DNA of 64,000 nucleotides from Nitrosopumilus piranensis (GTDB taxonomy: Archaea > Thermoproteota > Nitrososphaeria > Nitrososphaerales > Nitrosopumilaceae). The notes under the pieces are model-generated. The model had not been told where the DNA came from. It searched no databases and saw nothing but the letters and a program-made list of their open reading frames with translations. How positions within the stretch are numbered: position 1 is the stretch's first letter; each line of letters begins with the position of its first letter. Made by a program: the position numbers and the translations under genes. This document shows positions 53,827 to 55,935 of this stretch, one piece after another. The DNA lies in contig NZ_CP010868.1 in NCBI RefSeq assembly GCF_000875775.1, positions 1,623,707 through 1,687,706 of the forward strand. The letters are read 5' to 3'.

Positions 53827-53839
53827 AAAAGACAAAATG

Positions 53840-54005
53840 TTCCCCGGTTCTGACTCGCACAAGATCATTGGTATTTTAGCCAAAACCTCCTTGGGTTCTG
53901 AAACCGGGGTTGCCCATAATGTAGCACGCCTGGGTGAATTAGAAATCATTGGTATCATTACGATCGACATCATCCTAATCCGTCTGCGTGCCTGCTCTTG
54001 GGCGA
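53840..54005 (+). ncRNA. Candidate structured RNA, two coaxial hairpins, about 165 nt
   Basis: The GC content is about half, against one third around it. Hairpin 1: CCCCGGTT (53842-53849) pairs with AACCGGGG (53902-53909). Hairpin 2: TTGCCCA (53910-53916) pairs with TGGGCGA (53999-54005), and GCACGC (53924-53929) with GCGTGC (53986-53991). The 11-nt ATCATTGGTAT occurs once inside each (53864-53874, 53945-53955). A TATA-like box lies just upstream and the next gene's TATA begins right after. A 67-aa frame over this stretch is unlikely to be a gene. It does not match RNase P, SRP or C/D-box motifs I looked for. Confidence 0.65.
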
Positions 54006-54036
54006 TTAATTATAGAGCATATCCTACTAAAAACCA

Positions 54037-54300
54037 TTGATGGAGATCAAAAATCAAACACTGTTTTTTGTAGGAATCATAGTTTTGATTTTGGGGATGT
54101 TGATCATAATTTTTGATTATCCACAACTTCAGCTCTTAGAGAGTATGGATTCAGAATCATACTATATGCTTGATCAACAAAAAAAGGACATTCATCAAAG
54201 AATGAAAATTGAAATTAGCATTGGAATTGGATTATTTGTCACAGGAATTGGATTACTAGCAGTGTCTTTTCTAAAGATATTTGAGAATAGACTCAGATAA
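54037..54300 (+). CDS. Small membrane protein (two TM)
   Basis: TTG at 54037 or ATG at 54040, after a TATA (TTAATTATA, 54006-54014). TM1 is residues about 7-27 (TLFFVGIIVLILGMLIIIFDY) and TM2 about 61-80. The loop between is charged with 'MLDQQKKDIHQRMKIE'. Function unknown. It follows the RNA above and is convergent with pheT (30-bp overlap). Confidence 0.7.
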   Translation: MMEIKNQTLFFVGIIVLILGMLIIIFDYPQLQLLESMDSESYYMLDQQKKDIHQRMKIEISIGIGLFVTGIGLLAVSFLKIFENRLR

Positions 54301-55935
54301 TGATATCTCAAAACCAACTACAGGTACGCGGATTTTGTAATTTTCAATAATTTTGGAGTTTATCTCACCGATAACACCAATTGTTTTATTGTTAATTACC
54401 ACATCGGCACAATGACCTTTTTCAAATGAAGGATGTTCTGTAGTTTTGGTTTTAATTTCTATATCAAATCCTGTCTTTAATGCTGATTGTAAAACAGACT
54501 TGATTTCAGTAAAGTTTGCATCCTGATGTGCACTAATTCCAGAGAAACACCTTTCTTCAGAGACAGGATTGCCTGAAGAAAATACTGTTCCAGTTTCAAA
54601 TAGTTTCTGAGGATATGACTCGTGAATGTTCTTTGATAGATTCTCTAATAATCCAGGCAAAATTGAATCACGCAATATTGTATGCTCTTGGCTTTTAGAG
54701 TCACGAACAGAGATGATGGTTTGTGGTTCACGGTTTGCCATTTCATAAAGAACTCTTTTGCTAGTCAAACTAGAGTTCAGTGCCTCAAGATATCCTAGTC
54801 CAATCATAGTTTGACTAAGAGATTTTAGTTGCAGTGAGATTGGATTTGTTTGTCCAAGTGTTTGAGAAGGAGACATTGTAGGCTCAAGATTCTGTATTCC
54901 ATAGCCTAAAGCAACTTCTTCAACTAAATCCATTGGGCCAAAAATATCAAAACGATATGCAGGGATGACGCAAACAATATTTTTGCCTTTGAGCGTGGCA
55001 TCAAGTCTTGATTTTTTTAGAGACGATACAATCTTTGAATTATTTAGATTCAGTCCAAGTGTTTGATTAATTAATAATGGATCAACTATCATCTTTCGTT
55101 CAGCAAGTTTTGGAGAAGAGTTTTTTGCACCAGAGATTTGAACTGACTCCAAAGAGAATCCAGCGCTTTGCAAAATTGTTGCAACCACAGATAACATGTC
55201 TTCTGCATCAGCTTTGTTTATTCCGGTAACCTCAACAAACAGATTTTTGGTTTTTGTAGTTACAGTAGTTACTGCAGCATTAATTATGGGAGGAAAAGAA
55301 ATTGTCTTCTTGTTTGCATCAAGTATCAAAGGCATCTTAGAAGAATTTGCAAGCAAATCTCCATAGTCCTTTCCAACCTCAGTTGTTTTGAGAATCTCAT
55401 CAATGGAGAGTTCTTTGGTAGAGTTTAGCGGAGTAAACTTGTATTTTCTATCAGATGTGGCATAGACTAGAGGAAACTGAATTTTATCTAAATCATGAAT
55501 ACCAATTGAGGATTTTTTTCTTTTTCGTCCAATTCCAAAATGCAGGTCTTCTTGCATTACCATGAGTTGCTTGATGGTTTTATCATCAATTTTTCCATTT
55601 TTTGCAACGATTCCAGTTACAAATGGCCTTACTTTGGTAACATCAGATTTTACAGAAATGGCATATTGTTTTGATTTTTTGATTTTGAGTTTGATTGCAC
55701 CTGTTTTGATTCCTAGCAGTCCTTGCATTCCCAATGCAATTCCAAAGTCAGTGGAATAATCAGGTCTGTTTGGACTGTATTCAATTCGGACTAGATCCTT
55801 GTCTTCAGACTCTATATCAAGTCCTAAAAATGGCAATGAATCTGCAATCTGTTTTTTTGATGCCTTGCCAATTAGTTTTTGAAGACTAGAATAAGATAAT
55901 TCTACTACTGGCATTTTGTTGCACTCCTCAACCAA
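54271..55935 (-). CDS. pheT: Phenylalanyl-tRNA synthetase beta subunit
   Basis: 554 residues, the archaeal/eukaryotic type. B3/B4 domain segments appear in the first half ('IEYSPNRPDYSTDFGIALG'), the B5 helix-turn-helix is 'FDIFGPMDLVEEVALGYGIQNLEP' and the catalytic-like C-terminal part contains 'RDSILPGLLENLSKN'. It works with pheS as an alpha2-beta2 enzyme. It overlaps pheS by 31 bp. No FDX anticodon-binding end, as in archaea. Confidence 0.95.
   Translation of the reverse strand: MVEECNKMPVVELSYSSLQKLIGKASKKQIADSLPFLGLDIESEDKDLVRIEYSPNRPDYSTDFGIALGMQGLLGIKTGAIKLKIKKSKQYAISVKSDVTKVRPFVTGIVAKNGKIDDKTIKQLMVMQEDLHFGIGRKRKKSSIGIHDLDKIQFPLVYATSDRKYKFTPLNSTKELSIDEILKTTEVGKDYGDLLANSSKMPLILDANKKTISFPPIINAAVTTVTTKTKNLFVEVTGINKADAEDMLSVVATILQSAGFSLESVQISGAKNSSPKLAERKMIVDPLLINQTLGLNLNNSKIVSSLKKSRLDATLKGKNIVCVIPAYRFDIFGPMDLVEEVALGYGIQNLEPTMSPSQTLGQTNPISLQLKSLSQTMIGLGYLEALNSSLTSKRVLYEMANREPQTIISVRDSKSQEHTILRDSILPGLLENLSKNIHESYPQKLFETGTVFSSGNPVSEERCFSGISAHQDANFTEIKSVLQSALKTGFDIEIKTKTTEHPSFEKGHCADVVINNKTIGVIGEINSKIIENYKIRVPVVGFEISLSESILKYL

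Follow-up and report, generated by a model that had tools for sequence, protein, structure and literature searches.

A probable two-hairpin H/ACA guide RNA encoded on the minus strand behind pheT in Nitrosopumilus piranensis

Two adjacent hairpins in the genome of Nitrosopumilus piranensis (1.71 Mb, a single contig) very probably constitute an archaeal H/ACA guide RNA encoded on the minus strand; we put the probability of this reading at about 0.9. They lie in the 64,000-nucleotide stretch of DNA analyzed here, referred to as the window, between pheT on the upstream side and an EVE-domain gene on the downstream side, all on the minus strand. The locus comprises the following features:

53836–54008, minus strand: two-hairpin RNA, very probably an H/ACA guide RNA, recognized by its conserved block, covariation and G·U asymmetry (ends approximate)
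54024–54033, minus strand: TTTTTAGTAG, a possible TATA element ~26 bases upstream of the RNA's 5' end
54274–55935, minus strand: pheT (Pfam), the upstream neighbour, outside the RNA

The hairpins had been proposed, by a reading of the sequence alone, as a structured non-coding RNA of ~165 nt, and the conserved block and the covariation reported below bear this out. Both are located as described: CCCCGGTT at 53842–53849 pairs with AACCGGGG at 53902–53909 (8 bp), and the stems TTGCCCA/TGGGCGA and GCACGC/GCGTGC are present in the adjoining segment 53910–54005. The G+C content is raised at the hairpins (0.47, compared with 0.30–0.36 in the flanks), and the 11-mer ATCATTGGTAT has two exact copies in the 64-kb window, at 53864 and 53945. 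On its own, such a repeat is unremarkable, since 10 of 369 tiles of 173 nt from the window contain an exact 11-nt repeat. Compared with shuffled sequences, folding is more stable on both strands, most markedly on the minus strand (z = -4.12, against -2.63 for the plus strand). The decisive support for the hairpins is comparative, namely their conservation throughout the family together with covariation.

Of 95 genomes of the genus, 82 carry a relative of the block; in the family as a whole the count is 201 of 250, spread over 20 of 22 genera. Across the order, a covariance model built from 34 minus-strand sequences of the family matched 220 of 305 genomes, which belong to 40 of 59 genera; outside the home family its best E-value was 2e-20. 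Beyond the order, matches were also obtained in two families of the phylum, f37 (E down to 1.7e-7) and f49 (down to 6e-6). The model found no match in the genomes G046, G020, G024, G029 and G074 of the genus, one of which is 91% complete; assembly gaps are the likely reason. Two copies of the RNA per genome were observed in G139 and G140. The second copy in G139 is only ~82% identical to the window and stems either from a mixed bin or from a true paralogue.

When the two-hairpin structure was placed on the family alignment, 97.9% of the cells paired. Covariation is likewise present in the structure, as double-sided changes were found in 13 of 35 pairs, compared with 4.7 in shuffled alignments and 0–4 when the structure was slid. 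The same pairs assign the RNA to the minus strand, where they include 133 G·U and 6 A·C cells, because these 133 G·U cells would be mismatches on the plus strand. The plus strand, on which the sequence-only reading had placed the RNA, does fold better than its shuffles; however, its consensus energy is -28.8 kcal/mol as against -39.3 kcal/mol for the minus strand, and ACA boxes, kink-turns and rRNA complementarity occur on the minus strand only. A functional RNA on the plus strand is therefore highly improbable. Even less credible is a small protein gene, suggested by a 67-aa frame from 53837 that is open in the window: this frame is open over at least 55 codons in only 11 of 57 relatives, a nearby start codon is found in 6, and substitutions track base pairing, so that a conserved protein is not what the homologous regions encode.

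The gene neighbourhood raises a further alternative, that of a pheT 3' UTR or attenuator element instead of a free guide RNA. At 28 of 37 distant loci, with f37 from beyond the order represented among them, the upstream sequence encodes the pheT C-terminus on the strand of the RNA, which would agree with such an element. Yet the RNA is unchanged despite an intervening opposite-strand gene, which is present in the window and in about half of the genus and family loci (31 of 59, partly redundant), and its conserved single-stranded segments match 23S rRNA. We regard a pheT element as very improbable; a guide function would be compatible with transcription together with pheT. The intervening gene (54037–54300, plus strand) encodes an 87-aa membrane protein with a marginal Pfam match to Neurensin (27.8 bits at a cut-off of 27.7). 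It occupies this position in only part of the genus and appears to have been inserted recently between two genes whose pairing is conserved.

The possible TATA element TTTTTAGTAG is similar to TATA-like stretches upstream of the tRNA genes in the window. The TATA-like box claimed earlier on the other side of the hairpins proved weak, as its spacing to the hairpin varies among relatives; it sits at the expected promoter position of the EVE-domain gene, which is on the minus strand. A conserved stretch beyond the RNA, GGATTAATATTTGACTA, was discarded as proof of a promoter, since it is the 3' end of pheT in the relatives (TGLIFD plus stop). RNase P RNA was dismissed as an identity, this RNA being located elsewhere in the genome, and so was a box C/D RNA, for which inspection of both strands by eye gave no convincing C or D boxes.

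The defining parts of archaeal H/ACA RNAs are the hairpin pocket, the kink-turn and the ACA box (PMC3608112, PMC4652768). As criteria we used a lower stem of 7–9 bp, a GA stem of 10 layers, and a distance of 14–15 (16) nt between ACA and the closing pair of the pocket. From 5' to 3' on the minus strand, the order is clamp strand GCCC, AAGAGCA, hairpin 1, ACA, UUAU, clamp strand GGGC, AA, hairpin 2, A and ACA. The predicted parts are:

53923–53992, minus strand: hairpin 1, with lower stem GGCACGC/GCGUGCU, pocket, GA stem and kink-turn/kink-loop
53920–53922, minus strand: ACA box of hairpin 1, invariant in the 34 family sequences and kept in the other families compared
53980–53984, minus strand: left guide of hairpin 1, GACGG, kept across the order and in f37 (AACGG in a few)
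53930–53935, minus strand: right guide of hairpin 1, ACCCAG, kept across the order and in f37
53945–53955, minus strand: kink-turn strand of hairpin 1, AUACCAAUGAU, UGA invariant; reverse complement of 11-mer copy 2
54000–54003, minus strand: 5' strand of the clamp helix, GCCC, paired in 97.8% of cells
53912–53915, minus strand: 3' strand of the clamp helix, GGGC, pairing with the 5' strand on the same evidence
53842–53909, minus strand: hairpin 2, with lower stem CCCCGGUU/AACCGGGG, pocket, GA stem, kink-turn and apical loop
53838–53840, minus strand: 3'-terminal ACA box of the RNA, belonging to hairpin 2, invariant in the 34 sequences and present in more distant matches
53850–53854, minus strand: right guide of hairpin 2, GUCAG, conserved order-wide
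53897–53899, minus strand: left guide of hairpin 2, AGA, complementary to UCU(U), both A's invariant in the 34 sequences
53864–53874, minus strand: kink-turn strand of hairpin 2, AUACCAAUGAU, UGA and CC invariant; reverse complement of 11-mer copy 1

The lower stems of 7 bp (hairpin 1) and 8 bp (hairpin 2) fall within the archaeal range, and pockets and covarying upper stems are present. Both hairpins contain the sequence pattern of a predicted L7Ae site, CC-AAU-GA opposite GA. The 11-mer occurs once per hairpin because it is the reverse complement of AUACCAAUGAU, the long kink-turn strand (CC-AAU-GA); the earlier suggestion that it marks a binding element thus stands, while its placement in a loop does not, the repeat corresponding to one strand of the kink-turn.

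In hairpin 1, double-sided changes affect 5 of 7 pairs of the lower stem and 3 of 9 pairs of the upper stem, and the ACA box follows the lower stem without a gap (0 nt). The GA stem AUUAGGAU/UUUCUAAU closes in tandem G·A pairs with the CC-AAU-GA strand: GA at 53970–53971 lies opposite UGA and supplies these pairs, with AAU bulged out. The predicted hairpin 1 counts 10 layers between its pocket and the second G·A pair, and its distance to ACA is 15 nt; this is exactly the published geometry of productive H/ACA RNAs. Hairpin 2 has a nearly invariant lower stem, with a single double-sided change, whereas 4 of the 5 pairs of its GA stem show such changes. Its kink-turn reads CAAG-GA-GG/CC-AAU-GA-U-CUUG, with a stem around CAAG/CUUG, and its ACA box lies 1 nt after the lower stem. 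A bulged U sits beside the kink-turn, the distance to ACA is ~16 nt instead of the usual 14–15, and the GA stem reaches 10 layers only if the bulged U or non-standard pairs are counted. The Pyrobaculum RNAs sR204 and sR208–sR210 likewise have a bulge near the two kink-turn G·A pairs (PMC4652768); however, these lack a lower stem, which comprises 7–8 bp in the RNA described here.

Genes for Cbf5, Nop10 and L7Ae were found in the genome. In the proposed mechanism, L7Ae would bind both kink-turns, the stems and ACA boxes would be bound by Cbf5 together with Nop10 and Gar1 (the last of these presumed), and each pocket would pair with 23S rRNA and present a uridine for isomerization to pseudouridine. 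We infer transcription, RNP assembly and the resulting pseudouridines.

The two hairpins appear to be separable guide modules, since in family f11 (L136, L137) they lie ~80 bases apart and in family f12 hairpin 2 is found behind pheT with no recognizable hairpin 1 nearby. The spacer in f11 contains the TATA-like stretch TTATTATAAATGG, so that in this family each hairpin may be transcribed on its own.

The guide arms GACGG, ACCCAG, GUCAG and A(A)GA are complementary to 23S rRNA and largely kept throughout the order, whereas the sequences of the upper stems are replaced completely. The two-part pairing around an unpaired U-N that characterizes H/ACA guides is seen in hairpin 2 (CUGAC-UC-UCU(U)), while hairpin 1 pairs on both sides of 5 unpaired bases. 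GUCAG and A(A)GA of hairpin 2 pair with CUGAC-UC-UCUU beside helix 69, at local 23S position 2017. This position corresponds to E. coli 1921 and to yeast Ψ2264, since E. coli 1915/1917 correspond to yeast 2258/2260; yeast position 2264 is a pseudouridine (PMC8307265). Hairpin 2 would target the U after CUGAC (E. coli 1921), with the neighbouring 1923 as the alternative. Within the home family a 7-bp pairing, GAGUCAG:CUGACUC, points to 1923 (yeast Ψ2266), although the additional GA is not conserved elsewhere. The left guide is AAGA in other families and AAA in one clade of the home family. Taken together, hairpin 2 probably guides a helix 69 site, either 1921 or 1923. In f37 and f49 (L157–L162), hairpin 1 keeps GACGG, ACCCAG and ACA, while the arms of the second hairpin differ (AGAGAG and GUUAG/GUUAC); they might address other uridines of helix 69, e.g., 1915 or 1917.

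The arms ACCCAG and GACGG of hairpin 1, the former within (UC)ACCCAG in the window, pair with CUGGGU and CCGUC, which flank UUAGA in the peptidyl-transferase loop from local position 2671. The pattern CTGGGT-N(0-10)-CCGTC occurs twice in the genome, once in 23S. Other targets of hairpin 1 (16S 1314 and 23S 355) were rejected because they form fewer pairs or require upper-stem bases. When words of equal G+C were drawn at random, they matched the rRNA likewise in 0.4% of trials for hairpin 1, 0.8% for the order-wide form of hairpin 2 and 2.7% for the form found in the window; the true rates are higher, since several pocket registers were inspected before the choice, which the trials do not count. 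Hairpin 1 would act on U2585 or, by analogy with Haloarcula, on U2586, which is a pseudouridine in that organism and has been assigned to an H/ACA hairpin in haloarchaea. On balance we favor, with some reserve, a role of hairpin 1 in directing modification within the peptidyl-transferase loop.

Hairpin 1 differs from a conventional guide in two respects. Its target gap has 5 unpaired bases instead of the usual 2, and its ACA box is followed after 0–4 bases by a clamp helix whose partner is the 5' end of the RNA. In other families the clamp strands are unrelated in sequence but complementary (GGCUUUCGUC/GACGAAAGCC, GUCCCUAUC/GAUAGGGAC, AUGCCCGC/GCGGGCAU and GCUCCUGUC/GACAGGGGC), and only 0–1 of 100 shuffles paired equally well in these four cases, whereas several single sequences, including the 4-bp clamp of the window, are indistinct from shuffles. 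As far as could be checked, a clamped ACA box is unusual, since ACA is the last element in published descriptions of the H/ACA motif. The clamp, the five-base gap UUAGA and the retention of both arms would also suit an H/ACA RNA in which hairpin 1 acts as a chaperone, holding the peptidyl-transferase loop during ribosome assembly without modifying the rRNA. We consider this unlikely in view of the standard ACA box, the 10-layer/15-nt geometry and the kink-turn sequence of hairpin 1, and of the Haloarcula pseudouridine in the same loop with its assigned guide hairpin. A tentative reading, which covers either outcome, is that hairpin 1 might be a structural H/ACA variant: its ACA box would lie inside an internal loop closed by the clamp helix, and its arms would grip the peptidyl-transferase loop and leave five bases free, for modification of U2585/U2586 with altered geometry or for chaperoning of folding, in a gene whose place behind pheT is retained in several families of the order and in one beyond it. 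With its clamp and its five-base target gap, hairpin 1 is the most interesting part of the RNA for experiments.

Among known systems, the closest in function are archaeal RNAs with several H/ACA hairpins in one region, as in the minus-strand RNA, namely HP1/HP2 of Haloferax and Pf7/Pab40 of Pyrococcus. According to excerpts of PMC2584109 and PMC4652768, Ψ2586 of the 23S rRNA of Haloferax volcanii is attributed to HP1 and Ψ1915/1917 to HP2 (E. coli numbering). The regions assigned to these RNAs are thus the two that hairpins 1 and 2 are predicted to address, which is a likeness in function. However, hairpin 2 fits 1921 (or 1923) and not the 1915/1917 assigned to HP2, and the clamp helix and the linkage to pheT are features of the minus-strand RNA that the same excerpts do not mention for HP1/HP2 or Pf7/Pab40. 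In yeast, the sites predicted for hairpin 2 are served by snR3 (25S Ψ2264) and snR84 (Ψ2266) (PMC8307265); both have a eukaryotic architecture, and no homology with hairpin 2 is claimed.

A search of the window and 14 related loci against Rfam (4227 models) gave no match above the gathering threshold except tRNAs. On the minus strand, the H/ACA family RF00091 (SNORA62/SNORA6) weakly overlapped hairpin 2 (19.9 bits, E 0.22); membership was rejected, this score being far under the gathering score of 80. No H/ACA guide of ammonia-oxidizing archaea was found in the openly licensed papers searched, and the excerpted part of a metatranscriptome study (PMC5069720) reports other archaeal ncRNAs but not the one described here. 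The RNA had been called undescribed, which is correct for the family and not for the kind: it is new as a family, known as a kind and old within the archaea.

Ammonia-oxidizing archaea are among the most abundant microbes on Earth, and the exact position of a probable H/ACA guide gene can now be given for them, along with a covariance model that works order-wide and two candidate pseudouridine sites, both in those functional regions of the ribosome that are most conserved. Should the likeness to HP1/HP2 reflect homology, the two-hairpin guide would predate the split of these archaeal phyla, and the eukaryotic Ψ2264 site would, if the assignment is true, gain an archaeal counterpart.
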